Of a DNA stretch of 64,000 bases, positions 1,308 through 63,540 are shown piece by piece; the stretch's first letter is position 1, and each line of letters opens with the position of its first letter. Below the pieces are notes generated by a model that did no database searches, was not told the DNA's origin, and saw nothing but the letters and a program-made list of their open reading frames with translations. Origin of the DNA: Verrucomicrobium sp. GAS474 (lineage in GTDB: Bacteria; Verrucomicrobiota; Verrucomicrobiia; Methylacidiphilales; GAS474); assembly GCF_900105685.1 (NCBI RefSeq), contig NZ_LT629781.1, forward strand, positions 1,488,001-1,552,000. The letters run 5' to 3'. The position numbers were made by a program, and so were the translations under genes.

Positions 1308-1410
1308 AACGCGCTATATAAGCGGTTGAGGGAGAAAGGTACAGAGGAATTTTCGGGGGGCGGAGGGGAGCCGCCTTGCCCCGTCCGTTCCCAGGCCTTA
1401 ACTTCCCCCC

Positions 1411-2319: not shown

Positions 2320-2349
2320 GACGTCAAGGACGCCAAGGACATCATCAGG

Positions 2350-3360: not shown

Positions 3361-3364
3361 CCCC

Positions 3365-3808
3365 TCACCATTTTTTATAGCCGAGGAATTTTCCGTTCAT
3401 CGTGATTTTGACCCGGTCCCCCTTCGGGTCCTCGACCTTGTCGACATGCATCGTGAAGTCGATCGCGCTCATGATGCCGGGGCCGAATTTTTCCTCGATC
3501 AACGCCTTCAGGGTGCCGCCATAGACGTAGAGGATTTCCTGGAAGCGGTATTGGAGGGGTTCCTTCGGGATCGTCGGCGAGGCCTCTCCCTTGGACGGGT
3601 AGGCGGTGAGGGCCTGGGCGACGTCGGGGCCGAGGTCGAGGAGGGAGGCGAGCTTCGCCGCTTCCTCGGCGCTGAGGGAGTTTTCCCCCAGGCAGCAGGA
3701 GGTGGCGTACACCTCGGAGAGGCCGACGGCCTGGGCCAGGTGGCTCCACGTGAGGTTCTTGGCGGCCTTGGCGGCCACGATGGCATGGGTCATCTCGGTT
3801 TTGGTCAT
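3365..3808 (-). CDS. cynS: Cyanate hydratase (cyanase)
   Basis: A 147-residue protein. It catalyses bicarbonate-dependent conversion of cyanate to carbamate, which decays to ammonia and CO2. The N-terminal half is the HTH-like helical domain (LTWSHLAQAVGLSEVYATS). The C-terminal half carries the catalytic domain with Arg88, Glu91 and Ser114, whose 3- and 23-residue spacing equals that of Arg96, Glu99 and Ser122 of the Escherichia coli enzyme. The C-terminus GKFLGYKKW is typical of the family. Length is slightly short of the usual 150-156. No carbonic anhydrase, cyanate transporter or LysR-type CynR regulator lies beside it, so it looks like a stand-alone detoxification or nitrogen-scavenging gene. 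Confidence 0.93.
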   Translation of the reverse strand: MTKTEMTHAIVAAKAAKNLTWSHLAQAVGLSEVYATSCCLGENSLSAEEAAKLASLLDLGPDVAQALTAYPSKGEASPTIPKEPLQYRFQEILYVYGGTLKALIEEKFGPGIMSAIDFTMHVDKVEDPKGDRVKITMNGKFLGYKKW

Positions 3809-3931
3809 GGCTGGAGGGAAGCCCGTATCGTGCCGCTTCGCCGGAGGAAGCGAAGGGAAGGGTTGAAAACGAATCCGCGCGACGATGAGCGGAATTCATC
3901 CTCGCCGCCCCGCCTTTGCGATCCCGATTCC

Positions 3932-5017
3932 TTAAGGAATCGCCGGGAGGAGGCAGCTTCCCGGCCCGATCTCCCATACCGCCCCGCCATCGGGCATCAC
4001 GGTCCCGGCCTGGAGGATCTGGGCGTCGGCGGGGAGGAGTTGCTCTAGGGTCAGCTTCCGCTCGGGGTCGAGGGGGGTGAGGGCGTCGTCGAGGAGGAAG
4101 AGGGGCCAGCGGCCCCGTGCCTCCCTCACCCGGGCGGCCTCGATCAGGCGGAGCAGGAGGGCGGAGAGCCGCTGCTCCCCCTCGGAGCCGAAGCGGCCGA
4201 CCGATTTGCCCTTCCACTGGATGATCCATTCGTCGCGGTGGGGTCCGGCGAGGGTCCGGCCCTGCCGCTGTTCGGAGGGGGCGGCCTCGCGGAGGAGGGT
4301 GCGGGCGGCCTCCTCCCCTCCGGCGGGATCGAAGCCGGGACGGTAGGCGAAGCGGCAGACGGCGGCCCCGCCGAAGAAGGCCTCGAGGAGCGGCTCCGCC
4401 AGCCGCCCCGCCGCCTCGGCCGCCCGGACCCGCCCGGCGGTGACGGCGAGGCCGGTGGCGACGAGCTGGGCGTCGAGGACCTCGCCGAGGGCGCGGTCGC
4501 CCCGCCGGCCTCCGGCCCATTCGCGCAGCCAGGCGTTGCGCTGTTTCAGGACGGCGTTGTAACGCTGGACGGCGACGAGGTGGGCGGGGACGGCGAGGCT
4601 TTCCAGCGCGTCGAGCCAGGCCTGCCGCCGGGCGGCGGGGCCGCGGATCAGGACGGTGTCCTCGGCGCTGAGGAGGACGGTGGGGAGGCGGCCCCAGAAC
4701 TCGGGCATGGCGATCTTGTTCCCGTCGAGGAAGGTCTCCCGCGCGCCGTCGTTCCAGCGGACGATCAGGTGCTCCGCGGGGCCGCCCGCCGTCGCCGCGC
4801 AATCGGCCTCGATGGCGAAGCCCTTCCCGGGCCAGCGCGCCATCTCCCGGGGCTGCCCGGTGCGGAAGGAGCGGAGGCGGGAGAGGAACCAGGCCGCCTC
4901 GAGGATCGAGGTCTTCCCCCGCCCGTTCTGCCCCACGAGGTGGTTCCGCCCCGGCGTCGGGAAGAATTCGAGCCGCTCATGGCAGCGGAATTCGAGGAGG
5001 CGGAGGCGGAGGAGCAT
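3932..5017 (-). CDS. recF: DNA replication and repair protein RecF
   Basis: A 361-residue SMC-like ATPase that loads RecA at gapped DNA with RecO and RecR. Walker A is GQNGRGKTS (residues 29-37). The family block LSAEDTVLIRGPAARRQAWLD follows in the middle. Near the C-terminus are TLAGPHRDE, a signature-like SEGEQRLSALLL and Walker B LFLLDDALTPLD. Family members usually read LLDDV.SELD, so the ALTP variant is slightly unusual but keeps both Asp residues. It is not next to dnaA, dnaN or gyrB, so this is not the classical replication-origin arrangement. A GNAT gene ends 16 bases upstream of its start on the same strand, and the two may be co-transcribed. Confidence 0.9.
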   Translation of the reverse strand: MLLRLRLLEFRCHERLEFFPTPGRNHLVGQNGRGKTSILEAAWFLSRLRSFRTGQPREMARWPGKGFAIEADCAATAGGPAEHLIVRWNDGARETFLDGNKIAMPEFWGRLPTVLLSAEDTVLIRGPAARRQAWLDALESLAVPAHLVAVQRYNAVLKQRNAWLREWAGGRRGDRALGEVLDAQLVATGLAVTAGRVRAAEAAGRLAEPLLEAFFGGAAVCRFAYRPGFDPAGGEEAARTLLREAAPSEQRQGRTLAGPHRDEWIIQWKGKSVGRFGSEGEQRLSALLLRLIEAARVREARGRWPLFLLDDALTPLDPERKLTLEQLLPADAQILQAGTVMPDGGAVWEIGPGSCLLPAIP

Positions 5018-41903: not shown

Positions 41904-43328
41904 CTAGAACGCCGCGGGGAGCGTGGCGCGGAACGCCAGGATCTCCCCACTCCACGGCGCGATGTGGAGGGAGGCGTCGGCGAGGAGGAGGGTCGCCTCC
42001 TGGAAGGGATTCGCCGCGTTGAGCTCGATCTTCACCTCGTGGGAGGCCTGTGTCGGGACGAAGGTGGCGAAGCTGCCCTCGGCGGAACGGTGGGTCGCGG
42101 GGACGTAGGGGACCCCGGCGGGGCAATCGACGACGACCTTTCCGTCGACGCGGAGGCGGCAGCCGGAACGGGCGAGGGCGACGAGGCGGAACGGCTTGCC
42201 GAGGTCGGCCCCGGGCTTCCATTCGATCGTGCCGCCGCCGTTGGCCTTGATCTCGCCCGGCAGCTCGCCGTTCGCCCAGGGGACGAGGGCGTTCCCGCCG
42301 GTGAAGGAGACGGTGCCGGGGAGCGAGGCGAGGGAGGGGAGCGCCGTCGGGGCCGAGGGGAACCGGGGGGCGAGCTCCTCCGCGCGGGAGCGGAGGGCGA
42401 GGCTCCGGGCGGTCAGTTCCTGGAGGCTCTGCGGCGCGCGGATGCCGACGATGCCCGCGCCGACCTCGACCGAATCGCCGATCGGGGCGATCCATTTCTG
42501 CGGGAGCCGCTCCGCCCCGTGGAGCATGCCGAGGATTGCCCCGGCGGTGGCGGCGGTGCAGTCGGTGTCGTATCCGCCGTTGACGCCGAGGAGGACCGTC
42601 GCCTCGAAGTCGCCCGCGCCGTAGAGGAGCGCCCAGAAGGTGAGGGCGACGTTGAGCGGGGCGTGGGTGAAGTTGTCGCTGTGATGGGCGGCGAGGAGCC
42701 GCTCCCGCGCCGTCCAGCACTCGACGCCCTGGCGGTGGAGGTGGAAGAGGAGGTCGAAGGCCTGGCGGGTCTCGGTGGCGGGATCGACCCGCTTCAGCGC
42801 CTCCTCGATCCCCTCGTCGAGGCCGACGCCGTCGAGGAGGAGGGACTGGAGGACGGCGATGAAGACCTCGCCCGCGACGCCCTCGGCCCCGTGGTCGATC
42901 ATCGAGTCGAGCCGGGCGAAGGCCTCGGCGAGGTCGGGCTTCCCGGCGGCGACGATGGCCCAGACCTCGCTGCGGATCGGGGAGCCCATGCCGGAGGCGA
43001 AGGGATTCTCGTAGACCCCGGCGAGGGCGGCGGGGACGCCCCGGCGGAGGTTCCAGCGGCAGCGGCCGTACTCGTCCCACATGTAGTGGATGTGGGAGAG
43101 CCAGGCGTCGGCGATGGTCTCGATGGTCAGCGGTCCGCGATGGTTCTCCATCCGGTCGAGCCAGACGAGCTGGAGTTCCAGGTCGTCGTTCGGCGGGGCG
43201 ACGGTCGGGACGGGATCGTAGAAGCGGTAGTGCTGCCGCTCGGTCTTCCCCTCGGCGGGAAGGCCGAGGGTGCCGCCGATCGATTTGCCGAGCCAGCCGC
43301 CGTAGGAACGCGATTCGAGGGAGATCAT
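41904..43328 (-). CDS. ADP-ribosylglycohydrolase-fold protein with C-terminal beta domain
   Basis: 474 residues. The N-terminal about 300 residues show the all-helical ADP-ribosylglycohydrolase fold: GGWLGKSIGGTLGLPAEG, the first metal block PPNDDLELQ (usually TDD), and the second VNGGYDTDCTAATAGAILGM. The last about 170 residues (from SLQELTARS) look like a beta-rich sugar-binding-like domain. Classical members remove ADP-ribose from proteins. Its place between two sugar loci, under an IclR-type regulator, suggests a carbohydrate role; that is inference. It lies 104 bases downstream of iclR-1 on the same strand, with a perfect 8+8 inverted repeat between. Confidence 0.78.
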   Translation of the reverse strand: MISLESRSYGGWLGKSIGGTLGLPAEGKTERQHYRFYDPVPTVAPPNDDLELQLVWLDRMENHRGPLTIETIADAWLSHIHYMWDEYGRCRWNLRRGVPAALAGVYENPFASGMGSPIRSEVWAIVAAGKPDLAEAFARLDSMIDHGAEGVAGEVFIAVLQSLLLDGVGLDEGIEEALKRVDPATETRQAFDLLFHLHRQGVECWTARERLLAAHHSDNFTHAPLNVALTFWALLYGAGDFEATVLLGVNGGYDTDCTAATAGAILGMLHGAERLPQKWIAPIGDSVEVGAGIVGIRAPQSLQELTARSLALRSRAEELAPRFPSAPTALPSLASLPGTVSFTGGNALVPWANGELPGEIKANGGGTIEWKPGADLGKPFRLVALARSGCRLRVDGKVVVDCPAGVPYVPATHRSAEGSFATFVPTQASHEVKIELNAANPFQEATLLLADASLHIAPWSGEILAFRATLPAAF

Positions 43329-43432: not shown

Positions 43433-44302
43433 TCACGCCGGATCGGAATCGCCCGTGCCGGGTCCGGACTCCGGCGCGGCCTTTGCGGCGGTCTTCGCGG
43501 CGGGGCCGCGTCCCCGGCGGGCGGCCTTGCGGGGCTGGGTCTGCTGGGCTTCGCGCCACTGGGCCTCGATCGCCGATGCGGCCTGGCTCAGGTCGGCGAA
43601 GAGGGCCTCCCACTGTTCCTCGGTCTCGAGGCGGATGGTGGGGGCGCTCGCCCCGATGGCGGCGACGATCGATCCCCACGGGTCGCGGATGGGGACGGCC
43701 CCGGCGTTCAGCCCGGCGCAGAATTCCTCGCGGGTCCGGGCGCGGCCCTCCTCGCGGACGCGGCGCAGCTCGGCCTTCAGGCTCTCGACGGTGGAGAAGG
43801 TCCGGGGGGTGAAGGCCTGGAGCTTCGTCTCCTGGAGGAAGGCGTCGAGCTCGGGATTCGTCGTCGCGGCGAGGAGGATCTTGCCGACGGCGGTGGCGTA
43901 GGAATGGAGGCTCATGTCCTCCGATTCCTGGGCGCGGAGGGCCTGGCGGCTGGGGACGTACTTCAGGTTCAGCACCCGGCCATGGTCCATCGAGGCGAGC
44001 AGGACGCTCTCGTTCAGCTTCCGCGCCGTCTCCTCGACGATCCCGGAGGCGGAGAGGGTCAGGGAGCGGAGGTACGTGGGATGGCGGGCGAGGAGCATCA
44101 GGCGGATGCCGGGATAGAAGACCTTCGTCTCGGGGTCCTGGCGGAGGTAGCCCCGGAGGCAGAAGGTCCGCGCGATGTTGTGGATCGTGGCGACGTTCAG
44201 CTGCATCTGCTGGGCGAGGGCGCGGGTGCCGATGCCGTCGTGGTGATGGAAGATCGCCTCCAGGACGGAGAGGCTCTTATCGAGGCTTAAGACTCTGGGC
44301 AT
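43433..44302 (-). CDS. IclR-family transcriptional regulator (copy 1)
   Basis: 289 residues. The N-terminal winged HTH is recognisable (SLSVLEAIFHHHDGIGTRALA, then LNVATIHNIARTFCLRGYLRQD). The IclR effector domain follows, with ATAVGKILLAA and GAVPIRDPWGSIVAAIGASAP. The tail of about 30 residues is rich in Lys, Arg, Ala and Pro. It is closely similar to the regulator at 52916 (same HTH segment with three changes), so both may read the same DNA site. It is divergent from the sugar transporter gene at 44633 and upstream of the ADP-ribosylglycohydrolase-like gene. The inducer is unknown, presumably a sugar derivative. Confidence 0.88.
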   Translation of the reverse strand: MPRVLSLDKSLSVLEAIFHHHDGIGTRALAQQMQLNVATIHNIARTFCLRGYLRQDPETKVFYPGIRLMLLARHPTYLRSLTLSASGIVEETARKLNESVLLASMDHGRVLNLKYVPSRQALRAQESEDMSLHSYATAVGKILLAATTNPELDAFLQETKLQAFTPRTFSTVESLKAELRRVREEGRARTREEFCAGLNAGAVPIRDPWGSIVAAIGASAPTIRLETEEQWEALFADLSQAASAIEAQWREAQQTQPRKAARRGRGPAAKTAAKAAPESGPGTGDSDPA

Positions 44303-44632: not shown

Positions 44633-47176
44633 ATGATCGTCACTTGCAAAAAGGAGATCCCGTTCCGCTGGATTTTCTTCGCCGTCCTTCCCTGGGCCGC
44701 CTTCTCGTTCAACTGGGGCGTGGTCGGCGTCGCCTTCCTGTTCTCGCTGAAGAAATTCATCGAGAACCCGGCGGGACTGACCTTCATCCTCAGCATGCCG
44801 AGCTTCATCTCGGTCGTCACCGCGCCGACGGTCGGCTTCGTCTCCGACCGGATCTGGACCCGCTTCGGGCGGCGGAAGCCGTTCATCATCATCTCGTGGA
44901 CCGGGATCATCACCTCGCTGGTGCTGATGCCGCTGATGCCGAATTTCTGGTCGCTCCTCGTCGTCTACCTTTTCTACAACCTCTCCACCGATCTCAATTC
45001 GGCGCTCGACCCGTTGAAGCAGGAGATCATCCCTCCCCACGAGCGGGGCCGCGCGGTCGGCATGGTCTCGTGGTTCTCGAACCTCGGCTGGATGAGTTTC
45101 TATTTCATCGCCTTCGGCCGCTTCGACGACGTCCGCTACATGGGCGGCAGCCTCTTCGCGGGGGAGAAGGCGCTCTACTGGTCGGCGGCGCTCCTCATCG
45201 CCGTGATGCTCTGCATGATCACGCTCGGGATCAAGGAACTCGACCCGAAGAGCGCCCTGCGCGGGCAGCCGCTCACCCCGAAGAACTTCTTCACCGGGGT
45301 CTTCACCGCGGAGCTCCGCCCCATCTACCTCCTGGTCCTCGGGGCCGCCTCGCTCGGCGCGGGCCTCGGGCCGCTCGGCAACCTCCTCTACATCGACCAG
45401 TGGGGCTACACGAAGCAGCAGATGGGGATCAACATGGCCGTCGGCGGCGTGATCAACCTCTTCATCATCGGCTTGCTCACTGTCTTCGCCGACAAGCTGA
45501 ACCGGATGAAGGCCTACAAGATCCTCATCTTCATCTCGCTCTCGATCAACATCAGCTATTACTGCTACGTCAACTTCGTCCTCCCGGACAAGCATCCCTC
45601 CCTCGTCGAGATCATCTTCTTCGGCGAGACGGGAAGCATCGTCGGCCTCCTCACCGGGATGGTCTACGTCCCCCTCGTCTACGACTACGTCCGCCGGAAC
45701 CGGATGGGCACCTTCGCCGCCGGGTCGGGACTGGTCGGGCGGCTCACCGGGATCATCACGCTGAACGGCGTCGGCCTCTTCGTCTGGGGCTACGCCACCC
45801 TCTTCCTCCCGCCCGCCGGGGAGATGACCCGCGTCGTCCTCCGGGAGGAGACGAGCCGGACCGACCTCCTCGCGGCGCTCCGCTCCGCCCCGTGGGTCCT
45901 CCCTTCCGACGGCAGCGCGGCCCCGGCGCGGGACCTCGACGCGAAGGCGTGGCAGGCCAACGGCACCGCCTCCGAGAGGGGACGGACCTGGGAGATCCGC
46001 CTCCACGACAAGGAGAGCGAGAAGCGGAGCGAGCGGAAGAAGGATCTCAGCTCGAAGCAGTCGCTCCTCGTCTCGTCGGAAGAGCTCCTCGCCGCGAAGG
46101 TCGCCTCGGCGACCCGCCGGGGGGATCCCGCCGCCGTCGGGCGGCTGGGGAAGGAAGTCGCGGCCAAGCGGCAGGAGCGGGAGAAGATCACCGCTGAGAT
46201 CGCCGCGATCGACGCCGAGCTGGCCCGCCGCTCCGAGGCGTTCCACGCGCAGGTGGAGAAGGTCCTCGGCGGACGGATCCTCGCCCCCGGGGAATCGCTG
46301 CGGCGGGCCGCCCTCGGCGAGGCCGTCCTGGTCGAGCTGCCGACGACGGCGCGGCCCGAGGGGAAGGCGCTGGAGAAGGCCTCGGCGGCGCTCCGGCAGG
46401 CCTTCCCCGACCTGATCGACATCCGGCCGCTGAAATTGAAGGAGACGAAGGAGGAGGAAAACGGCTACGCCCTGGTCGTCAGCTTCCCTGCCGGAAGTGG
46501 CGGCGGGAGCGACGCGTCCCTCGCCGAGGCCGTGGCGCGGACGGCGGCGGGGGCGGGCTCCCCGCTCTTCCCCTCCGGAGGCGGCCCGCTCGCTCCCCTC
46601 GGCACCTGGCGCGAGCCCCTTCTCTCGTTCGAGGCGATGGTCGTCGAGAATCCGGTCGATCCCTACGTCTCGCCGATCAACCGGGTCGTGAACGGCCTCT
46701 TCTCCCTCTTCCAGAAAAACCCGACCGCGCGGCGGAAGCTCGACGCGATGGCGAGCACCCTGCGGAGTTCCTCCGGGATCGGCCACCTCCGGATCGATCC
46801 CGGCGCGGAGCCGAAGACCCTCGCCGTCACCGTCGTCCTGCCGCCGACCCTCGAGGGCATGATTCCCACCGCGGGCGACGCGGCGGTCGGCACCCGGCTG
46901 GAGCAGTTGCCGCCCGCCGGGGCGGCCAAGGCGGGAATCGCCGCCGAGGCGCGGCAGTTCTACGACCAGCTGGAGGTCGCCGCCGCGGCCCAGCGGATCA
47001 CCCTGGTCCGGCCCCGGCTGGCGTCGGGCTATGCGCCGATGCAGTATGATTACATGAGCGGTTACCTATGGATGTTCCTGATGAGCGTGATCGGCATCAC
47101 GATGGTCTTCGTCTTCTGCCACGTCGAGCGGAAGGGGTTGGTCCGCAAGCGGGGCGTCGAGGAGGAAAAGGCATGA
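44633..47176 (+). CDS. MFS/GPH-type sugar transporter with a large insert between the last two helices
   Basis: 847 residues, about twice the usual 400-450. Residues 1-393 carry eleven predicted membrane helices of a GPH-like sugar:cation symporter, with loop motif GFVSDRIWTRFGRRKP (68-83), DPLKQEIIPPHERGRAVGM (126-144) and LVYDYVRRNRMGTFAAGSGLVGR (348-370). Residues about 395-805 form a soluble insert: a charged, probably coiled-coil helix (about 455-545, EREKITAEIAAIDAELARR) followed by mixed alpha/beta sequence. A last helix (808-830, GYLWMFLMSVIGITMVFVF) completes the transporter. The gene overlaps the next one by ATGA. It is divergent from IclR-1, which likely controls it. The sugar is unknown, and the insert's function is unrecognised. 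Confidence 0.8.
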   Translation: MIVTCKKEIPFRWIFFAVLPWAAFSFNWGVVGVAFLFSLKKFIENPAGLTFILSMPSFISVVTAPTVGFVSDRIWTRFGRRKPFIIISWTGIITSLVLMPLMPNFWSLLVVYLFYNLSTDLNSALDPLKQEIIPPHERGRAVGMVSWFSNLGWMSFYFIAFGRFDDVRYMGGSLFAGEKALYWSAALLIAVMLCMITLGIKELDPKSALRGQPLTPKNFFTGVFTAELRPIYLLVLGAASLGAGLGPLGNLLYIDQWGYTKQQMGINMAVGGVINLFIIGLLTVFADKLNRMKAYKILIFISLSINISYYCYVNFVLPDKHPSLVEIIFFGETGSIVGLLTGMVYVPLVYDYVRRNRMGTFAAGSGLVGRLTGIITLNGVGLFVWGYATLFLPPAGEMTRVVLREETSRTDLLAALRSAPWVLPSDGSAAPARDLDAKAWQANGTASERGRTWEIRLHDKESEKRSERKKDLSSKQSLLVSSEELLAAKVASATRRGDPAAVGRLGKEVAAKRQEREKITAEIAAIDAELARRSEAFHAQVEKVLGGRILAPGESLRRAALGEAVLVELPTTARPEGKALEKASAALRQAFPDLIDIRPLKLKETKEEENGYALVVSFPAGSGGGSDASLAEAVARTAAGAGSPLFPSGGGPLAPLGTWREPLLSFEAMVVENPVDPYVSPINRVVNGLFSLFQKNPTARRKLDAMASTLRSSSGIGHLRIDPGAEPKTLAVTVVLPPTLEGMIPTAGDAAVGTRLEQLPPAGAAKAGIAAEARQFYDQLEVAAAAQRITLVRPRLASGYAPMQYDYMSGYLWMFLMSVIGITMVFVFCHVERKGLVRKRGVEEEKA

Positions 47177-47772
47177 GCGACGAGATCCCGATGAATCCTT
47201 CCGTCCGGGCCCGGGCCGAGGCCGAGGGCGATTACGGCACCTACACGCCGGGCTATGCCCGGTCGAAGGCGGTGATGATCGCCGTCGGCCTCTGCATCAT
47301 GGGCTTCGGCTTCAGCCAGCTGGTCCTCCCGCTCCGCCTCCTCGCCTTCGGCGGGCGGGCGCGGGCCGAGGCGGTCGCGGTGGTCAAGGAAAAGGAGGGC
47401 CTCCCCCCCGGCGTGCTGCGGAGCGATGCCGAGATCGCGAAACAGCTCGAACCCCGCGACCGGAGCTACACGTTCTGGAACACGTTCCGTTTCCGCACCC
47501 GGGAGGGCGTCGTCGTCGAGGTCCGCGCGCCGGTCGGAAGCCAGCTGAAGCCGCTCTACGCCCTGATCGACGAGGAGGGGCTGCCGACGGGCGACCTCGT
47601 CTGGTACGACAAGGCCTGCCCGGAAACCGTCGTCTTCCCGCTGATCGTCAGCACGTGGTTCGCCCCCGTCATGATCGTCCTCGGCGGGGCGCTCACGGTC
47701 TTCGTCGGCTCTTTCCTCTTCTACTGGGCGAACAGGCCGATCGCCCTCCCCCGCATCGGGGAATCGTCCTAA
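47173..47772 (+). CDS. Small two-helix membrane protein, translationally coupled to the transporter
   Basis: 199 residues from the ATG at 47173, which overlaps the transporter TGA as ATGA. A cytoplasmic N-terminus (about 35 residues) is followed by a helix (AVMIAVGLCIMGFGFSQLVLPLRLLAF), a soluble segment of about 110 residues between the helices with FRTREGVVVEVRAPVGSQLKP, and a second helix (TWFAPVMIVLGGALTVFVGSFLFYWA). The layout resembles DUF3592-type membrane proteins, without certainty. The strict coupling implies it is made in fixed ratio with the transporter and may be an accessory subunit. Confidence 0.72.
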   Translation: MSDEIPMNPSVRARAEAEGDYGTYTPGYARSKAVMIAVGLCIMGFGFSQLVLPLRLLAFGGRARAEAVAVVKEKEGLPPGVLRSDAEIAKQLEPRDRSYTFWNTFRFRTREGVVVEVRAPVGSQLKPLYALIDEEGLPTGDLVWYDKACPETVVFPLIVSTWFAPVMIVLGGALTVFVGSFLFYWANRPIALPRIGESS

Positions 47773-50439: not shown

Positions 50440-52881
50440 TTACCAGGAAATGAGGAGGGGGCCGGTGACGTGGTGGGCGACGGTGCGGTGGCCCGCCGTG
50501 GTGCCCGGGATTTCTTTCCCGATGCCGAGGTAGGGCTGCTCTTCCTGGAACCGGACGGGGGTGCCGAGGTCGGTGTCGTGGAGGAAGGTGACGGTGGCGT
50601 CCTTCAGCCCGGTGACGAGGAGGCGGCGGCGGACGTCGACGGCGCCCTGGAATTTCTCCCGGCAGCCGACCTCGCCCCCCTCCTTCTGCTCGACGAAGAC
50701 GCGGCACTCGCGGTGCCAGGCGCGGGCGGGGTTCAGCGTGCCGAGGTTCGGGCCCTTCCCGTCGTTCTTCTCCATCAGGACGTCGCAGCCGACGGGGACG
50801 GGTACCCCCTCGGGGAAGCGCCACCGGAGCTGGACGTTCGTCGAGGGAGAGAAGCCGGAGAAGAACCAGCCGTTGCGGCACCGCGCGGCGAGGATGAGGG
50901 GATCGACGGTCTCGGGTGACGGCTTGTTGAACCGGAGGACGGTCCCGAATTTTTCGAGGATCGAGCGCATGAGCCGCTCGCTGGAGAACCATTCCCGCGC
51001 GTCGTCGCGGACGGGGAGCATCTGGTGGGGATCGATCTCCTCGGCGAGGGCGCCGCGGACCCAGCCGAGCTTCCCGCCGCCGGGAAGGGCGCGGAGGAGG
51101 GAGAAGGCCCGCCGTTCCTCGTCCCGCGCGACCTCGGCGAGGACCTCGCTCCCGGCCGAAGCGGGGAGGAGTTCCTCGGCGCCGCCGCCCGAGGTGAGCG
51201 CCCGGAGGTGGAGCTTCCCGGCGAAGGCCCCTTCGCCAAGGGAATCGGCGGGGAGGGTGGTATGGAAGTCGAGGACGCCGGAGAGCGGCGCGCCGCATTT
51301 CAGGCCGAGGAGGTCGAGGAGGAGGGGGTCGGCGTGACGGAGGGGGCCGTAGAGGAGGACCGAGCCCCCTTTCTCCAGGTGGGCCACGAGGAGCCCGGCG
51401 AGGGCTGATCCGGCGTCGGGCGCGGGGGAGACGAGGAGGGTCCCGTCGAAGAGGGCGGGGTTGGCCGCCTTCGCCTTGGCGAAGTTTCCGGTCGAGACGG
51501 CGGTGTTCAGCGGGAAGCCCTGGTTCACGGCGGCGCGGAGGAACCAGTCGCCGAAGAAGACCTCGTTCACCCGCCGGCCGTCCTTCGCGAAGGTCCACTC
51601 GTGGTATTCGTCGAAGGGATAGATCCAGGTGACGAGGCCGGGGGCGTCGGGGAAGTCGCGGAGCGCCTGCTGGACGTGGGGGGTGACCTCGTTCGGGACG
51701 ACCTCGGGCATGTTCCCATAGGAGTCGTCGATCGTCAGCATCGCGACCGACCCGGGCCGGGTGACGGTGCCGTCGCCGTCGATGCGGCAGACCGAGAGGG
51801 GGAGGTAGATGTCGTTCGGTTCCCGGCCGTAGCGGTCGAGCCACGGGCTGTTCGCCCACCAGGGATCGTGGATGTAGAAGCGGAAGGGGACGGCGCTGCG
51901 GCCCGAGGCGTTCTCCGGCAGCTCGGCGATGTGGGAGAGCCAGCCGATGAGCTCGAGGCCGTAGTCGCCGTTCAGCGCGGCCCACGGGGAATTGACCGGG
52001 GCGGTGAGGTTGAAGCCGCCCTCGTAGATGTCCCGCACGGGCGAGGCGTGGGCGGAGAGGTCCATCCCGGTGGAGAGGTTGCTGCCGCGCGTCTCGATGG
52101 GGAAGAGGGGGCATTCCTTGCGGAAGTCCTTCCAGAATTGGAGGATCGTCTCGCGGACGCGGGGGGCGTTCGTCGTGTCGAAGTGCTTTCCGTCGAAGAC
52201 CTCGCCCGTCACGTTCCAGGCGGCGAGGGCGAAGGCGAAGCCGTTCGAGAACCAGATGTAGTCGAAGCCGAGGTCGGTGAGGAAATGCTGGCTCTGCCGC
52301 CCGAGGAAGAGGCCGAAGGGGGTCCCGTCGGGAATGCCGCCGGGGAAGCCGACGTAGGGCCGGGTGTCGCCCGAGAGGGGGCGGGTGCAGTTGACCCACT
52401 TCCCCTCGCCCATCGTCGCGCCGCTGCTGATTTCCTTGTGCCGCGCGTACTTGAACGACGACTCGGCGAACTCCGGGCCGGGATCGAAGACGGTGCCGAT
52501 GGTGACCGGCTTCCCCGTCGCCTTCCCGGCCTCCTCCTTCACGATGCGGACGAGGGTGGCGAGGCGCTCGTAGGTCAGCACCGCGGGCTTCTCGCAGTAG
52601 GGCCAGCGCCAGGTGTGGAGGATCTGGTGGGGCTCCTTCCGCCACGGCCCGTTGGCGATGCCGATCCAGCGGCCCCAGTCGATCTCGTCGTCCCAGTGGG
52701 CCTTGCCGTTGTAGTCGAGGATCTCGCTCCCCTCGGCGGTCCAGAGCATGAAGGAAAGGGTCTCCGCGTCGCGGATGAGGGAGCCCCACTGGCGGACGAT
52801 CTCGCGGGCGGTGGCGGCGATCCCGGCGTCGGAGAGGTCGCGGAAGGGCTTGAGGCTGACTTCGAGGATGAGGCGTTTCAT
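50440..52881 (-). CDS. Large unrecognised protein, possibly a glycoside hydrolase-like enzyme
   Basis: 813 residues, no signal peptide. I do not recognise the family with certainty. The first about 450 residues look like a TIM-barrel enzyme (LEVSLKPFRDLSDAGI, GTVFDPGPEFAESSFKYA, FGLFLGRQSQHFLTDLGFDYIWFSNGFAFAL, WIYPFDEYHEW), with many Trp, Asp and Glu residues typical of sugar-active enzymes. Residues about 480-560 resemble the amidotransferase-like trimerisation domain of some beta-galactosidases (AGLLVAHLEKGGSVLLYGP). The last 150 residues are beta-rich. It sits between IclR-2 (34 bases) and the arabinose-isomerase-like gene (33 bases), so an intracellular oligosaccharide-processing role is a fair guess. 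Confidence 0.6.
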   Translation of the reverse strand: MKRLILEVSLKPFRDLSDAGIAATAREIVRQWGSLIRDAETLSFMLWTAEGSEILDYNGKAHWDDEIDWGRWIGIANGPWRKEPHQILHTWRWPYCEKPAVLTYERLATLVRIVKEEAGKATGKPVTIGTVFDPGPEFAESSFKYARHKEISSGATMGEGKWVNCTRPLSGDTRPYVGFPGGIPDGTPFGLFLGRQSQHFLTDLGFDYIWFSNGFAFALAAWNVTGEVFDGKHFDTTNAPRVRETILQFWKDFRKECPLFPIETRGSNLSTGMDLSAHASPVRDIYEGGFNLTAPVNSPWAALNGDYGLELIGWLSHIAELPENASGRSAVPFRFYIHDPWWANSPWLDRYGREPNDIYLPLSVCRIDGDGTVTRPGSVAMLTIDDSYGNMPEVVPNEVTPHVQQALRDFPDAPGLVTWIYPFDEYHEWTFAKDGRRVNEVFFGDWFLRAAVNQGFPLNTAVSTGNFAKAKAANPALFDGTLLVSPAPDAGSALAGLLVAHLEKGGSVLLYGPLRHADPLLLDLLGLKCGAPLSGVLDFHTTLPADSLGEGAFAGKLHLRALTSGGGAEELLPASAGSEVLAEVARDEERRAFSLLRALPGGGKLGWVRGALAEEIDPHQMLPVRDDAREWFSSERLMRSILEKFGTVLRFNKPSPETVDPLILAARCRNGWFFSGFSPSTNVQLRWRFPEGVPVPVGCDVLMEKNDGKGPNLGTLNPARAWHRECRVFVEQKEGGEVGCREKFQGAVDVRRRLLVTGLKDATVTFLHDTDLGTPVRFQEEQPYLGIGKEIPGTTAGHRTVAHHVTGPLLISW

Positions 52882-52915: not shown

Positions 52916-53761
52916 TCAGGCGGCGGCCTGCTGGGGCGCGGGCGTCTTCGATGGGGCCTTCGCCTTGGGCGCGGTCTTTCCCTTTCCCTTGCCCTCGGGC
53001 TGCCGGTTCTCGGTCCACTGCTTTTCGACGAGGGCGGCGGCCTCGCGGAGTTCGCGGAGCGTCGTCTCGAAGTGGTCGGCGTCCTGGAGGCGGACGGTCG
53101 GGGCGCTCGCCCCGATCCCGGCGACGATCACGTTCCACGGATCGCGGACGGGGACGGCGATGGCGCTGACCCCCTCGGCCGCTTCGTCGCGGGTCTCGCC
53201 GTATCCCTGGATGGCGATCTTGCGGAGCTCCTCCTTCAGCGCCTCGGGGGTGGAGAGGGTGTGGGGGGTGAAATGCTGGAGCGGGGTCTTCCGCAGGTAG
53301 GCCTCGAGCTCGGGCTTCGAGAGCGAGGCGAGGAGGACCTTGCCGACGGCGGTGCAATAGGAGTGGTCGCTGATGTCGTCGGCCTCGTGGACGCGGAGGG
53401 CCTGGCGGCTCGGCACGTACTTCAGGTTCAGGATATGCCCGTGATCGATGGAGGCCAGCATGACGCTCTCGTTCAGTTTCTTCGCGACCTTCTCGATGAT
53501 GGGGGAGGCGGAGACGGCGAGGGATTGGAGGTAGGAAGGCTGCCGCCCGAGCAGCATCAGCCGCATGCCGGGGAAGAAGGTCTTCGTTCCGCTGTCCTGG
53601 CGCAGGTAGCCGCGATGGCAGAAGGTCCGGGCGATATTGTGGACCGTGGCGACGTTCAGGTCGAGTTCCTGCGCAAGGGCCCGCGTCCCGATGCCGTCCC
53701 GATGGGCGACGACCGCCTCCAGCAGGGAAAGGCTCTTATCGAGAGTGAGGACGAGGGGCAT
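52916..53761 (-). CDS. IclR-family transcriptional regulator (copy 2)
   Basis: 281 residues, closely related to the regulator at 43433. Its HTH reads LNVATVHNIARTFCHRGYLRQD against LNVATIHNIARTFCLRGYLRQD there. The effector domain has NLKYVPSRQALRVHE, CTAVGKVLLASL and VPVRDPWNVIVAGIGASAP. It ends in a similar Lys/Ala/Pro-rich tail (KGKGKTAPKAKAPSKT). It leads a leftward unit with the large putative enzyme, the isomerase-like protein and the SGNH hydrolase. Two AT-rich sites lie upstream (53778 and 53886). The high likeness to copy 1, including the recognition helix, suggests cross-regulation of both halves of this locus. Confidence 0.88.
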   Translation of the reverse strand: MPLVLTLDKSLSLLEAVVAHRDGIGTRALAQELDLNVATVHNIARTFCHRGYLRQDSGTKTFFPGMRLMLLGRQPSYLQSLAVSASPIIEKVAKKLNESVMLASIDHGHILNLKYVPSRQALRVHEADDISDHSYCTAVGKVLLASLSKPELEAYLRKTPLQHFTPHTLSTPEALKEELRKIAIQGYGETRDEAAEGVSAIAVPVRDPWNVIVAGIGASAPTVRLQDADHFETTLRELREAAALVEKQWTENRQPEGKGKGKTAPKAKAPSKTPAPQQAAA

Positions 53762-57793: not shown

Positions 57794-58297
57794 ATGCCCG
57801 CCCGCGCCGCCGGACTCCGGAACGCCGCCCTCCTGGCCAAAGCCAGCGCCTTCAGCCTGGTCGAGGTCGTCCTCGCCCTCGGCGTGGTCTCGGTCGGCTT
57901 CGTCGCGGTCATGGGCCTCATGCCGGTCGGGCTGAAGACGATGCGGCAGGCGACGACGCTGACCGTGCAGAGCCAGATCGTCCAGCAGCTCGTCGGGACG
58001 GCCGAGACGACGCCGTTCCCGAAGCTGGCGGCGAAGTTCGACAACGCGAAGTTCTACTACGACGACGAGGGCGGGAGCCTCACCAACGCGGTGGGCAAAA
58101 CCCGCTACTGGGTCACAACGACGGTCACCGATCCGATCTATCCCGGCTCGGACCAGGTCGACAAGGCGAACCCCCTCTCGCAGAACCTCCGCCTGGTCCG
58201 CATCCAGGTGATCAACTCCCCCATCGCCCCGACCTCGGGCGGCGTCGGGCAGGTCACGAACGTCTTCTTCATCCAGGTCGCCTCCTCGGAGAAATGA
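57794..58297 (+). CDS. Prepilin-like protein, Verru_Chthon cassette B type (GspI/PilV-like)
   Basis: 167 residues from the ATG at 57794. After a 19-residue leader comes a type IV prepilin signal, ASAFSLVEVVLALGVVSVGFV, with Phe at +1 and Glu at +5 of the mature protein. The residue before the cleavage site is Ala instead of the usual Gly. The remaining 130 residues are a pseudopilin-like globular domain. It is the first of four prepilin-like genes in a row, resembling the minor pseudopilins of type II secretion tips. The ATGA overlap with the next gene shows coupled translation. Confidence 0.78.
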   Translation: MPARAAGLRNAALLAKASAFSLVEVVLALGVVSVGFVAVMGLMPVGLKTMRQATTLTVQSQIVQQLVGTAETTPFPKLAAKFDNAKFYYDDEGGSLTNAVGKTRYWVTTTVTDPIYPGSDQVDKANPLSQNLRLVRIQVINSPIAPTSGGVGQVTNVFFIQVASSEK

Positions 58298-59289
58298 GTC
58301 CGCCCATGAAGCCCGTCCCGCCTTCCCGCCTCCCCCGCTCCCGCGGCTTCACTGTCGTCGAGATCCTCGTCGCCACGACGATCCTCGCCTTCCTCCTCGT
58401 CTTCACCCTCCAGATCGTCAACCAGTCGAGCCGGATCTGGCGGCACGCCTCGGACAAGATGGAGTCATTCCAGGGGGCGCGGAACAGCTTCGGCCTCCTC
58501 ACGCGGAACCTCGGCCAGGCGACCCTCAACGCCTACCTCGACTACGACAGCGCGACGGCGCCGAAGTACTACATCCGCAAGTCCGACCTCGCCTTCTACA
58601 TCGGCCCCGCCGGGACGGGGAGCAATCCCGGGACCGCCGGGAGCGGCCAGTGCGTCTTCTTCCAGTTCCCCGGCGGCTACACCGCCACCTCGACCTACGC
58701 CTCCCTCGACGCCCTCCTCAACGGCTGCGGCTATTTCGTCAGCTTCAGCCGGGAGCCGGGGATCCCCAGCTACATCCCGCTCTCGAAGGCCCCCTACCGC
58801 TATCGGCTCATGCAGTACCTCGTCCCGACGGAGCAGAACAAGATCTATTCCTACGCCGCCCTCGGGAAGGCCAACGGCTGGTTCACCGACACCGGCGTCG
58901 GGGCGACGCCGACTCCCGTCGCCGACAACGTGATCGCCCTCGTCATCCGCCCGCAGGACCCCGCCTCGACCCCGCCCGACCTCGCCCCGAACTACCTCTA
59001 CGATTCGACGGTCGGCGCGACCTACCCCCAGGTCGTCACCTCGAACCAGCTCCCTCCCGTCCTCCTCGTCACCCTCATCGCGATCAGCGAGTCGTCGGCG
59101 AAGCGCCTCGACACCGGCACCTCGACGCCCCCGGCGCTGATCACCTCGATCCTCCACGGCCACTTCCAGAGCGCCTCCTCCTACGACGCCGATCTCGCCG
59201 CCGTCGAGGCCGGGCTCAACAACGCCCACATCGACTACGAGGTCTTCGTCGGCGCGGTCCCCCTGCGGGAATCGAAATGGACCAAATAA
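58294..59289 (+). CDS. Prepilin-like protein, Verru_Chthon cassette C type (GspJ-like)
   Basis: 331 residues. The start ATG at 58294 overlaps the previous TGA. The prepilin signal is RSRGFTVVEILVATTILAFLL, with Gly before Phe and Glu at +5. The mature part of about 310 residues is longer than GspJ and holds repeated aromatic and Asp-rich segments (NAYLDYDSATAPKYYIR, CVFFQFPGGYTATSTYAS). It would be inserted in the inner membrane, processed by a prepilin peptidase encoded elsewhere, and built into a pseudopilus-like structure. Confidence 0.78.
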   Translation: MSPPMKPVPPSRLPRSRGFTVVEILVATTILAFLLVFTLQIVNQSSRIWRHASDKMESFQGARNSFGLLTRNLGQATLNAYLDYDSATAPKYYIRKSDLAFYIGPAGTGSNPGTAGSGQCVFFQFPGGYTATSTYASLDALLNGCGYFVSFSREPGIPSYIPLSKAPYRYRLMQYLVPTEQNKIYSYAALGKANGWFTDTGVGATPTPVADNVIALVIRPQDPASTPPDLAPNYLYDSTVGATYPQVVTSNQLPPVLLVTLIAISESSAKRLDTGTSTPPALITSILHGHFQSASSYDADLAAVEAGLNNAHIDYEVFVGAVPLRESKWTK

Positions 59290-59302
59290 GGGCAAGGACC
59301 GG

Positions 59303-59905
59303 ATGAACCGCCTTTCTTCCCCCTCCCTCCCCGGCTCCCGTCCCCGGCGCGGCTTCACGCTCATCGAGCTCCTCGTCGTCATGGGGATCGTCGCGGTGGT
59401 CGCCGTCTTCGCCGTTCCCGCGCTTCCCTCGCTCCTCCTCGGCAACGCGCTGAGCCGGGGCGGCCAGGTGCTCGGGAACGAGCTCGCCCTCGCCCGCCAG
59501 GAGGCGATGACGGCGAACCGCGAGGTCGAGGTCCGCTTCTACCGGATCTCGGGATCTTGGACCGCGGTCCAGGCGTGGCGCGTCGACACCGACGACAGCG
59601 GCACCACCTACACGCCGCTCCGGCACATCCAATACCTCCCCGACGGCATCATCGTGAAGGAGGGCCTCTCCCCCCTCCTCACCGCCGATCCGGCGGTCAC
59701 CGGTCAGGTCGTCCTCCCGGCCCGGATCACCGCCAGCTACGGCGGCTTCCGCTTCCGTCCCAGCGGCGCGACGAGCGTCGCCGTGACCGACGCGAACAAC
59801 TTCCTCACCGTGCAGGACCGCAACGCCCAGGGCGATCCTCCCAAGAATTACTACACCCTCCAGGTCAACCCGCTCAGCGGGAAGATCGCGGTTTACCGGC
59901 CCTGA
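59303..59905 (+). CDS. Prepilin-like protein, Verru_Chthon cassette D type (GspH/FimT-like)
   Basis: 200 residues. The canonical prepilin signal RRGFTLIELLVVMGIVAVVAV is present (cleavage Gly-Phe, Glu at +5), followed by helix LLGNALSRGGQVLGNELALARQEAMTANREVEV, the block typical of GspH and FimT proteins, and a beta-rich domain ending NPLSGKIAVYRP. It lies 13 bases behind the previous gene and 17 bases ahead of the large cassette protein, so one operon is likely. Confidence 0.82.
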   Translation: MNRLSSPSLPGSRPRRGFTLIELLVVMGIVAVVAVFAVPALPSLLLGNALSRGGQVLGNELALARQEAMTANREVEVRFYRISGSWTAVQAWRVDTDDSGTTYTPLRHIQYLPDGIIVKEGLSPLLTADPAVTGQVVLPARITASYGGFRFRPSGATSVAVTDANNFLTVQDRNAQGDPPKNYYTLQVNPLSGKIAVYRP

Positions 59906-59922
59906 CGCGCCTCCCCCAACCC

Positions 59923-62900
59923 ATGAGTCACGCCATGAAACTCCCCCCCCGTCGCTCCGGCTTCGCCCTCCTCCTCGTCCTCGGGATGCTCGTCCTCATC
60001 GTCGGCCTCGCCGTCGGCTTCCTGATGAGTTCGACGACCGAGCTGCGGAGCGCCTCGGGCTTCGGGGCCACCGTCGCGGCCCGGAACCTCGCCGACACCG
60101 CCGTCGGCCTCGTGCAGGGGCAGATCAACCTCGCCGCCACGCAGGGAACCGGCGTCGCCTGGGTCTCCCAGCCCGGCATGGTGCGGACCTACGACACCGC
60201 CGGAAGCCTGAAGAAGGCCTACAAGCTCTACTCGGCGGCGAACATGATCTCCTCGACGGTCGACGTCGCCGGCGGGAAATCGGCCGACGAGCCGCCGGCC
60301 GCCTGGAAGAGCAGCCCCGCCCTCTGGACCGATCTCAACGCGCCGGTCCAGACCTCCAACGGCAAGGTCTACCCGATCCTCGACGGCAGCGTCGGATCGA
60401 ACGGCCTGAAGCCCGAGGGATTCAGCCTCGGCACCGTTCCCGGGGCCTCCTCCTGGCAGCCGATCCCGATGCCGGTCCGCTGGCTCTATGTCCTCCAGGA
60501 CGGGACGATGGTCGCCGCCACGGGGAGCGGGAAGAGCGCCACCGTCGCCGGGGCGAGCGCGGCGAATCCGATCGTCGGCCGCGTCGCCTTCTGGACCGAC
60601 GACGACTCGTGCAAGGTGAACATCAACACCGCCGGCGAGGGGACCTACTGGAACACCCCGCACACCGTCACCGCCAACGAGGTGAACTGGGGCAAGTATC
60701 AGCCCGCGAAGGGCGAGTTCCAGCGTTACCCGGGCCATCCCGCGATGACCTGCCTCTCCTCGGTCCTCGGCGTCTCCCCCTCCCACGCCACCCTGAGCAA
60801 CGACGATATCTACGCGATCACCCCGCGCATCTCCACCGGCGGCTCGAACGGGAAGACTGTTGTCGCCGGCACGACCTCGACGGCCGTCGGCACCACGATC
60901 CCGACCGCCGCCATCGCGGCGAAGACCCAGCGCCTCTACGCCTCGGTCGACGAGCTCGCCTTCAACGTCGCGCGGACCCAGAACTCGACGAAGATCACGC
61001 CGACCGACATCGCCCAGGCCCGCTTCTTCCTCACCGCGAACAGCCGGGCCCCGGAGACCAACCTCTTCAACCTCCCCCGCATCGCCTGCTGGCCGGTCTA
61101 CAGCAACCTCGCCCCGACCCGCACCACCTCCTACGACCAGCTCATCGCCTTCTGCGCCTCGACCAGCGGGACCGCCGGGAACAACCCCTATTATTTCCAG
61201 CGCCAGACGAACACCAACCCGACGACCGACATCAGCCTCCCGCGCAACGGAACCCTCTACAAATACCTGCGGACCCTCACGGGCCGGGCGATCCCCGGAT
61301 TCGGCAACAACTTCCTGACGAAGTACAGCGACGACCGCGACCAGATCCTCACGGAGATCTTCGACTACATCCGCTGCACCAACCTCTACGACGACAGCAT
61401 GACGGGGACCGGCAAGACCCCCTACACCCAGGCGCCGGGCGCCGCGGGCCACGGCTGGGTGGCGCCGACCGTGAACAACATCACCGTGCCGGTGACGCAG
61501 GGCCTCGGTCGCTCCTTCACCCTTTCCTCGTTCGGCATCGGCTTCATCTGCAACGCCGATGCCGCCGTTCCCCGCAGCAATGACCTTGTCAATAACAAGG
61601 CGCTTCGGAACACGGGCAACGTGGTACTCGCCCCCGGGGAGAAGGTCGTCCAGGCAATCCTCATTCCCCAGCTCTTCGCTCCCATGATGGGGTATACGAC
61701 GATCACCCCGTCGATGAAGATGACGATCACCGGTCAGGGGGCGATGTCGCTGACCGCCCTGCCCGGGGGAGGGACGTCGCAGCTCTTCACGGGCACCGCC
61801 ATCAGCGGGACCGAGAACTACAACGGCCTCCTCAGCTACATCATCAATGGCGGCTCGGGCTGGGGCGGCCATCCCTCCTGGCGTTTCTTCACCAACGCCT
61901 ACGGCGGGTCCTATCCTTGGGTCAGCGTTCCCGTGAAGCTTGCCGCCGGCACGACGTCGATGCTCCTCGCCGGCACGACCCTCATCGTCACATTCACCGA
62001 CATCGCTTCGGGACAGGTTTTGCAGACTTTCAATGTTCCCCTTCCCTCGGTTGTCCTGCCGATCCCGGCCCTCGTCAATGATCCGAGTTTGGTCTCGCCC
62101 CCGACGACCGATTTGCCGAATTGGTGGAGCTTCGGGGTGAATTTCCCGAACACCAGCGCCTATCCCTCGATTTTCGGCACCTTCCCGGGGCGGCTCTCTT
62201 TCGTCAGCTCAAAGGGCCAAGGCGGAGCGACGACGCCGCAGCTCGGCAATCCCGTGATCGACACGTACGACGTCGTCCGCACCGTCCAGCCGGCCCACGG
62301 CGACTTCCGCGTCCTCGCCGGTCTCAACAACGTCCCCGCGTCGACCTACATCATCCATCCCGACTACCGGGATACGACGAAGATGTGGGCCTCGACCCTC
62401 ACCGAGGCCTACAGCACGGCCAGCACCCAGGGTCTTTCCCTCGGCAGCTACTTCCCCAGCACGATCACCGCCGCCCAGTACCGGGGCACCCTGGCCGCGC
62501 CCGACATCATCCCCTCGGCCACCGGGACGAACACCCCCGAGGGAACCGGCGACTTCGACAGCGGCCTTCCGAACATCCCCGACGGCGCCTACATCAACAA
62601 GCCCGACGAGGGCCTCGGGCCGGGGGCCGCCGGGGCGAGTACCTACTTCGACTACCCGTGGACCGCCAATGCGGCGGGGGTGAACTTCTTCTCCCCGAAC
62701 CGCCAGATTCCGTCGCCCGGGATGTTCGGCTCCCTGCCTACGGGGGTGAAGGCGGGCGTCCCGTGGCGGACGCTCCTCTTCCACCCCCAGACGAGCCACT
62801 TCGGCTCCAGCCATCTGCCCGAGGATCATCTCTTCCTCGACCTCTTCTGGATGCCGGTCGTCGAGCCCTACGCGATCAGCGACCGCTTCTCGACCGCCGG

Positions 62901-63540
62901 GAAGATCAACATGAATTACCAGATCCTCCCCTTCACCTACATCAACCGGTCGACCGGGCTCAACGCCCTCCTCAAGTCGGAGCGCGTCTACGCGATCCCG
63001 AACGCCGACGTACAGCTCGGCTACAAGGTCGGCCCCCAGGTCCCGGCGGTCGACTACCCCGTCGACGCGACGCAGACCCTCGCCCAGTTCCAGACGAAGT
63101 TCCAGTCGGGCGACGTCTACCGGTCGGCCTCGGAGATCTGCGATCTCCACATCGTCCCCCTCGGCCTCACGGGGGCCTCCGTCGCGACGATGGCGAACAC
63201 CACGACGGGCGGATTCTGGGCCGGGATGCGGCTTACCGGGGAAAACCTGCGGGAGCGGATCTACACGACCCTCTATCCCCGCCTCACGACGAAGTCGAAC
63301 ACCTACACCGTCCACTTCCGCGCCCAGTCGCTGAAGAAGGCGGCGGCCTCGATCCCGAGCGCGTGGCAGGAAGGGGCCGATGTCGTCACCGGGGAATACC
63401 GAGGCTCCGCCACCATCGAGCGTTTCATCGACGCCAACAACACGAGCATCCCCGACTACGGCACGAACCCCGACGCGACGCCGACCCTCGATACCTACTA
63501 CCGCTGGCGCGTCATCCGCAACCGGCAGTTCTCCCCCTAG
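59923..63540 (+). CDS. Large cassette protein, Verru_Chthon cassette A type (GspK/PilX-like N-terminus)
   Basis: 1205 residues from the ATG at 59923 (or 1201 from 59935). The N-terminus RRSGFALLLVLGMLVLIVGLAVGFLM is a prepilin-like membrane helix without the usual Glu at +5, as in GspK and PilX, followed by a conserved-looking TTELRSASGFGATVAARNLADTAVGLVQGQI. The rest is a very long, Gly/Thr/Pro-rich extracytoplasmic region with NINTAGEGTYWNTP near residue 230, and ends WRVIRNRQFSP. GspK lacks Glu5 and caps the type II pseudopilus tip; by analogy this would be the tip subunit of the cassette. Its size, about three to four times GspK, is notable. Confidence 0.78.
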   Translation: MSHAMKLPPRRSGFALLLVLGMLVLIVGLAVGFLMSSTTELRSASGFGATVAARNLADTAVGLVQGQINLAATQGTGVAWVSQPGMVRTYDTAGSLKKAYKLYSAANMISSTVDVAGGKSADEPPAAWKSSPALWTDLNAPVQTSNGKVYPILDGSVGSNGLKPEGFSLGTVPGASSWQPIPMPVRWLYVLQDGTMVAATGSGKSATVAGASAANPIVGRVAFWTDDDSCKVNINTAGEGTYWNTPHTVTANEVNWGKYQPAKGEFQRYPGHPAMTCLSSVLGVSPSHATLSNDDIYAITPRISTGGSNGKTVVAGTTSTAVGTTIPTAAIAAKTQRLYASVDELAFNVARTQNSTKITPTDIAQARFFLTANSRAPETNLFNLPRIACWPVYSNLAPTRTTSYDQLIAFCASTSGTAGNNPYYFQRQTNTNPTTDISLPRNGTLYKYLRTLTGRAIPGFGNNFLTKYSDDRDQILTEIFDYIRCTNLYDDSMTGTGKTPYTQAPGAAGHGWVAPTVNNITVPVTQGLGRSFTLSSFGIGFICNADAAVPRSNDLVNNKALRNTGNVVLAPGEKVVQAILIPQLFAPMMGYTTITPSMKMTITGQGAMSLTALPGGGTSQLFTGTAISGTENYNGLLSYIINGGSGWGGHPSWRFFTNAYGGSYPWVSVPVKLAAGTTSMLLAGTTLIVTFTDIASGQVLQTFNVPLPSVVLPIPALVNDPSLVSPPTTDLPNWWSFGVNFPNTSAYPSIFGTFPGRLSFVSSKGQGGATTPQLGNPVIDTYDVVRTVQPAHGDFRVLAGLNNVPASTYIIHPDYRDTTKMWASTLTEAYSTASTQGLSLGSYFPSTITAAQYRGTLAAPDIIPSATGTNTPEGTGDFDSGLPNIPDGAYINKPDEGLGPGAAGASTYFDYPWTANAAGVNFFSPNRQIPSPGMFGSLPTGVKAGVPWRTLLFHPQTSHFGSSHLPEDHLFLDLFWMPVVEPYAISDRFSTAGKINMNYQILPFTYINRSTGLNALLKSERVYAIPNADVQLGYKVGPQVPAVDYPVDATQTLAQFQTKFQSGDVYRSASEICDLHIVPLGLTGASVATMANTTTGGFWAGMRLTGENLRERIYTTLYPRLTTKSNTYTVHFRAQSLKKAAASIPSAWQEGADVVTGEYRGSATIERFIDANNTSIPDYGTNPDATPTLDTYYRWRVIRNRQFSP

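Follow-up and report, generated by a model that had tools for sequence, protein, structure and literature searches.

Carrier Gene and Insert

The locus lies within a 64,000-nucleotide stretch of DNA (the window). An open reading frame at 44633-47176 on the plus strand runs from an ATG start without interruption and encodes a predicted carrier of 847 aa (component A), whose stop codon overlaps the start of a gene for a smaller membrane protein (component B). The features are as follows.

44633..47176, + strand: component A, MFS/GPH-like carrier with insert, 847 aa (ORF, Pfam)
44663..45820, + strand: TM1-TM11 up to the junction FLPPAG, residues 11-396 (mapping from the L042 fusion model, hydropathy)
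45821..47044, + strand: insert, predicted periplasmic soluble domain, residues 397-804 (alignment of insert-free relatives, AlphaFold pLDDT 84.5)
45821..46009, + strand: insert part 1 (residues 397-459), a beta-alpha-beta-beta unit that includes W440, E454, and R456 (AlphaFold model, conservation)
46010..46276, + strand: coiled-coil hairpin, residues 460-548, least conserved and variable in length (model, conservation)
46283..46642, + strand: insert part 2, residues 551-670, ferredoxin-like element order (AlphaFold model, structure comparison)
46643..47044, + strand: insert part 3 (residues 671-804), in which conservation peaks at E672-F693 (S680, P681, F693) (model, conservation)
47045..47131, + strand: TM12, residues 805-833 (mapping from the L042 fusion model, hydropathy)
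47173..47772, + strand: component B, 199 aa, a domain enclosed by two membrane helices, with weak likeness to DUF3592 (ATGA overlap with the carrier stop)

Pfam searches matched carrier residues 24-375 to MFS_1 (49.7 bits; gathering score, 33.4) and residues 46-375 to MFS_2 (PF13347; 34.3 bits; gathering score, 27), in agreement with an earlier note on this DNA that had read the frame as an MFS/GPH-type protein of 847 residues. MFS_1/MFS_2 matches are common to the GPH symporters (MFS_2; e.g., the melibiose permease MelB) and the SLC45/sucrose carriers, although with the sucrose/H+ symporter model TIGR01301 the protein scored 20.5 bits versus a curated cut-off of 511.

In the nearest short relatives TM11 is joined straight to TM12, and alignment with them delimited an insert of 408 aa between FLPPAG (391-396) and YDYMSGYLW (from 805), with a sharp junction at both ends. 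The short relative L012 runs ...YSKWFLPEG directly into KFDYFSGYLF..., whereas the window carrier runs ...YATLFLPPAG, then 408 residues, then YDYMSGYLW.... The insert between helices 11 and 12, noted earlier as about 395-805, is thus set at residues 397-804. From residue 393 to about 807 hydropathy analysis found no hydrophobic segment, and in the AlphaFold model of a naturally fused homolog (L042) a single helix follows the insert, which itself comes after eleven long ones. The carrier's MFS motif A (SDRIWTRFGRRKPF) lies in loop 2-3 of a 12-helix arrangement (L042 homolog model and hydropathy), and Lys and Arg are on the whole commoner in its cytoplasmic loops than in the short periplasmic ones. 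Since TM11 is odd-numbered, the position of motif A and the loop charges predict that it ends in the periplasm, which would place the insert there as well. Motif A, loop charges, and the AlphaFold model therefore concur with the side proposed in the earlier note, and the topology evidence keeps the segment between TM11 and TM12. That the insert is a conserved periplasmic domain is, in our assessment, very probable.

The view that GC content and codon use were uniform held at third codon positions (GC 0.952 in the carrier vs. 0.939 in the insert) but not for overall GC (62.8% vs. 73.0%); since third-position GC is even across both parts, the overall gap comes from amino-acid content. Chance and a frame or assembly artefact were excluded, the latter as had been argued from the unbroken frame, by the open ORF, a paralog in the same genome, and about 25 homologs of the same architecture.

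Predicted Fold of the Insert

An AlphaFold model of the insert, built from 12 sequences, reached a pLDDT of 84.5 and a pTM of 0.77 and contained both the charged coiled coil and the mixed alpha/beta part that had been foreseen. The order of its elements suggests three beta-alpha-beta-beta-alpha-beta parts, in the first of which the coiled-coil hairpin (its modeled helices about 36 and about 50 residues long) replaces the second helix. We also considered whether these parts were homologous repeats; hhalign found no sequence relation among them. Residues W440, E454, and R456, together with 672-693 (including S680, P681, and F693), were the best conserved, while the apparent conservation of columns 602-607 and 648-650 reflects gaps in most of the other sequences.

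The window insert had zero Pfam matches, and neither Pfam nor NCBIfam offers a name for the domain. Across 12 inserts Pfam returned scattered matches only, mostly of coiled-coil type, and a PDB sequence profile search gave only weak matches to ribosomal S6 (E 0.005) and coiled coils. HMG-CoA reductases, the top Foldseek results, were rejected as a fold match at TM-scores of 0.14-0.16; VIA-align found nothing well above background, and the ferredoxin-like element order of part 2 in the model came with a structural Z of about 7, which is within the usual background. No carbohydrate-binding fold was recognized in the insert by Pfam, Foldseek, or structure comparison. As modeled, the insert has no clear match among solved structures, and we do not claim a new fold; it is a conserved yet unnamed domain rather than one already described.

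The hairpin aligned with those of EmrA and MacA (Z 7.3-7.7), which raises the idea that it reaches peptidoglycan or an outer-membrane channel in the manner of membrane-fusion proteins, so that glycans would pass from pore to carrier. The lipoyl and barrel domains that accompany such hairpins were not seen on inspection of the model. Such a trans-envelope bridge is quite unlikely: any helical hairpin gives Z values of this size, and seryl-tRNA synthetase and SMC proteins scored higher in the same comparison. Moreover, conservation within the insert is lowest in the hairpin, the length of the segment containing it ranges from 69 to 98 residues across homologs, which argues against spanning a fixed distance, and no outer-membrane channel gene was recognized in the neighborhoods scanned.

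Distribution and Selection

Homologs came from three sources: 188 searched genomes of the class, a genome-contig scan, and profile searches. These yielded about 25 distinct insert-bearing carriers from several Verrucomicrobiota families, with inserts of 352-416 aa at the same junction. Strong insert-bearing loci numbered 18, in 14 of about 370-384 genomes of the class; the distribution is patchy, with 7 of 62 genomes in the order, and neither of the genus's two further genomes has such a carrier. The window's own genome encodes a second full-length copy with 63% identity overall (core, 75.6%; insert, 46.1%). No insert was found on plasmids, and one pattern-based genome-contig scan, of limited sensitivity, found no insert-bearing relative outside Verrucomicrobiota. 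As a stand-alone protein the insert was not seen in the class-wide search, where a weak match in G184 (E 9e-4) was centered around the coiled coil.

As to a single origin of the insert, the insert-bearing carriers fell on one side of a branch in the tree, but its support was low (49/45). For four close pairs dN/dS was 0.07-0.17 in the insert vs. 0.035-0.06 in the core, and the rate of evolution was 2-5 times higher in the insert than in the carrier. By these rates the insert is under purifying selection, looser than that on the carrier; the value for the paralog in the same genome (0.47-0.60) was set aside, since third-position GC near 0.95 makes dS unreliable.

Two loci merit separate mention. 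In the metagenome-assembled genome STA_34 one carrier copy (L035 4001-6532) breaks into two reading frames around residue 311, by a frameshift or an assembly error, and a second copy (L037) is intact. On a contig of G089, an insert-free and an insert-bearing relative lie about 7 kb apart (L069 2692-4059 and 10936-13326), providing a natural comparison of function.

Pairing with Component B

The start codon of the B gene lies inside the carrier stop (ATGA, 47173-47176). At almost every insert-bearing locus checked, B adjoins the carrier or is fused to it in frame after TM12, the fused form accounting for 8 of the 25 tree members (a single origin of the fusion, at p-AU 0.067, was not clearly rejected). 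Class-wide searches found the 18 strong insert loci and 18 strong B loci in the same 14 genomes. No strong B matches were found elsewhere in the class; two extra matches were both weak (E 1.9e-7 and 9e-4), and G076, the genome of the insert-free relative L012, was not among the listed B matches. Of the new evidence obtained here this pairing is the strongest, and judging by these searches the insert and B travel together. DUF3592 (PF12158), for which we know of no function, showed a weak likeness to 4 of 12 B homologs (best E 2e-4); the window's own B had no match. The AlphaFold model of the L042 fusion was poor over B.

The earlier note proposed a polysaccharide, a porin, or a partner protein as ligand; the last of these is favored first by the evidence, in the form of the product of the next gene, on which that note is silent. 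Contact between B and the insert or carrier is reasonably likely. An insert that merely holds A and B, or two copies of A, together as an assembly or stability module, taking no part in substrate handling, would account for strict pairing, for the coiled coil, and for the lack of a recognized binding fold. However, a domain of 350-416 residues with conserved W440, E454, R456, S680, P681, and F693 is large for a tether, which counts somewhat against this explanation, and we consider it unlikely.

The insert might instead sense a periplasmic glycan and pass a signal on to a regulator by way of B or of the carrier, the sole pointer being a divergent IclR-family gene that adjoins the window carrier. 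Adjacent regulators differ or are absent at other loci, the cytoplasmic tail of the carrier past TM12 is only about 14 residues long, and no signaling domain was recognized in B, all of which make such a transceptor highly improbable.

Gene Neighborhoods and Likely Substrate

Besides the carrier, the window encodes proteins resembling fucose/arabinose isomerases and, weakly, CE2 enzymes, as well as a GDSL esterase, a member of the ADP-ribosylglycohydrolase family, and two IclR regulators. The IclR genes (43433-44302 and 52916-53761, both on the minus strand) have very similar N-termini and flank the region with the carrier and the isomerase and esterase genes. The ADP-ribosylglycohydrolase-family protein of this sugar cluster (41904-43328, minus strand) has about 190 extra C-terminal residues, and beside the isomerase-like gene an 813-residue protein (50440-52881, minus strand) has no Pfam or NCBIfam match.

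Carbohydrate enzymes are encoded close to most of the carrier copies: GH2 near carriers L033 and L042; GH1 near L036 and L069; GH38 near L037, L039, L041, and L072; GH130 near L039 and L043; GH43 near L041; GH5 near L072; GH78 near L079; GH39 near L069; and a heparinase-like gene near L043. AXE1 and a polysaccharide deacetylase lie near the paralog in the same genome (L078), and deacetylases also near L042 and L069. No glycan enzyme was recognized among the neighbors scanned at L038, L075, L076, and L077. Considering these glycosidase, esterase, and deacetylase neighbors, the carrier is likely an oligosaccharide importer. Several of the neighboring glycosidases had no obvious signal peptide in a crude hydropathy test, as would be expected if oligosaccharides were imported intact. 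Enzymes of mannose type appear repeatedly, yet the range of enzymes is wide, so that different carrier copies probably serve different glycans.

Transport in the opposite direction was weighed as well, with a glycan or other compound moved outward to a periplasmic partner, as is thought for Rv1410 homologs with LprG; functional extensions in the same loop are found in Rv1410 homologs and in QacA, both exporters. The MFS_2 (sugar symporter) match above cut-off and the catabolic neighbors, including GH130 phosphorylase-like proteins, fit import instead, and export appears the most improbable of the readings considered. Structure does not decide direction, as Foldseek matched the 12-helix part of a homolog about equally to many MFS types, MelB among them. 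On balance, glycan import is predicted with good confidence.

Pilin-like cassettes of the Verru_Chthon type were also observed. The window's own genome has about seven, one of which lies in the window at 58294-63540, about 12 kb from the carrier. At the paralog (L078 10339-13872; G000:C1:957338-960835, minus strand) a cassette lies 29 bases upstream on the same strand; directly upstream of the L038 carrier is a pilin-like cassette (1208-3949) that scores below the cut-off of the family, and the L043 carrier has a related pilin-like gene beside it (3065-3871). Since G015 and G280 both have the carrier and no match to cassette protein A, the carrier-cassette link is not obligatory.

Comparison with Known Carriers

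MFS carriers are normally single polypeptides without large soluble parts, and we know of no named GPH, SLC45, or sucrose carrier with a large domain between TM11 and TM12. The MFS core of the window carrier is itself ordinary; what appears new is a large insertion without a named family, together with an undescribed partner. In the open-access literature searched we found no description of a TM11-TM12 domain of 400-residue size, nor of DUF3592 together with MFS.

The position is not unprecedented. In the Rv1410 homolog MHAS2168, truncation of the TM11-TM12 extension abolished transport, and docking of LprG there has been proposed (PMC10576003). Like the window carrier, this mycobacterial triacylglyceride transporter has a periplasmic TM11-TM12 elaboration with a proposed partner, but the elaboration is a helix extension of about 20 angstrom, the protein is a 14-helix lipid exporter, and the partner is a lipoprotein. 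In QacA, a DHA2 drug efflux protein with an inserted element between its last two helices, deletion of the EL7 hairpin abolished activity, and the hairpin is thought to gate the outer mouth (PMC10425836). EL7 has about 25 residues, and QacA is a drug exporter with no partner gene; nor does the window carrier, with 12 helices by homolog model and hydropathy, show the DHA2 trait of 14 helices with two linker helices. The loop elements of Rv1410 and QacA are more than 10 times smaller than the window insert. Thus, of the earlier claim that the site is unusual, the size stands as unprecedented, while the loop position was already known from these smaller, essential extensions.

Another likeness is offered by the mammalian peptide carriers PepT1 and PepT2, whose immunoglobulin-like domain lies between TM9 and TM10. 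These MFS importers bear a complete folded extracellular domain within one outer loop (PMC4597091), and to that extent the window carrier resembles them.

Proposed Mechanism and Significance

Building on the architecture, periplasmic placement, conservation, B pairing, and glycan-degradation neighborhoods found computationally, we infer A-B contact, the direction of transport, its substrate, and a capping or gating role. The locus would belong to a family of such two-part importers in Verrucomicrobiota. Component A would be a 12-helix GPH-like MFS carrier in which the final periplasmic loop expanded to a 350-416 residue domain. Component B, made from the overlapping gene or as a C-terminal fusion, would pack beside the carrier, and its periplasmic domain would dock on the insert to form a cap over the carrier's outer mouth. 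This cap would hold incoming oligosaccharides and/or gate access, after which ordinary MFS alternating access would hand them to cytoplasmic glycosidases and phosphorylases. Taken as a whole, the reading we lean toward, by a little, is a two-part glycan importer with a periplasmic cap, built from insert and B, for capturing substrate or gating the carrier; capture or gating in particular is a tentative element of it.

A further version, in which the insert and B act as a conduit or adaptor that takes oligosaccharides from outer-membrane machinery, possibly the Verru_Chthon cassettes, we hold to be very unlikely; if a trans-envelope reading were true, two-component MFS uptake would stand where other systems use a binding protein or SusCD-type capture.

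The Verrucomicrobiota are notable for degrading polysaccharides, and to our knowledge the passage of glycans across their inner membrane is poorly worked out. Since the insert and B are unnamed in Pfam and NCBIfam, annotations of these genes probably read simply MFS protein and hypothetical protein. The A-B pair is small and directly testable. With a conserved last-loop domain that is genetically tied to another membrane protein, the carrier family would seem to have its own device for capture or gating built in.
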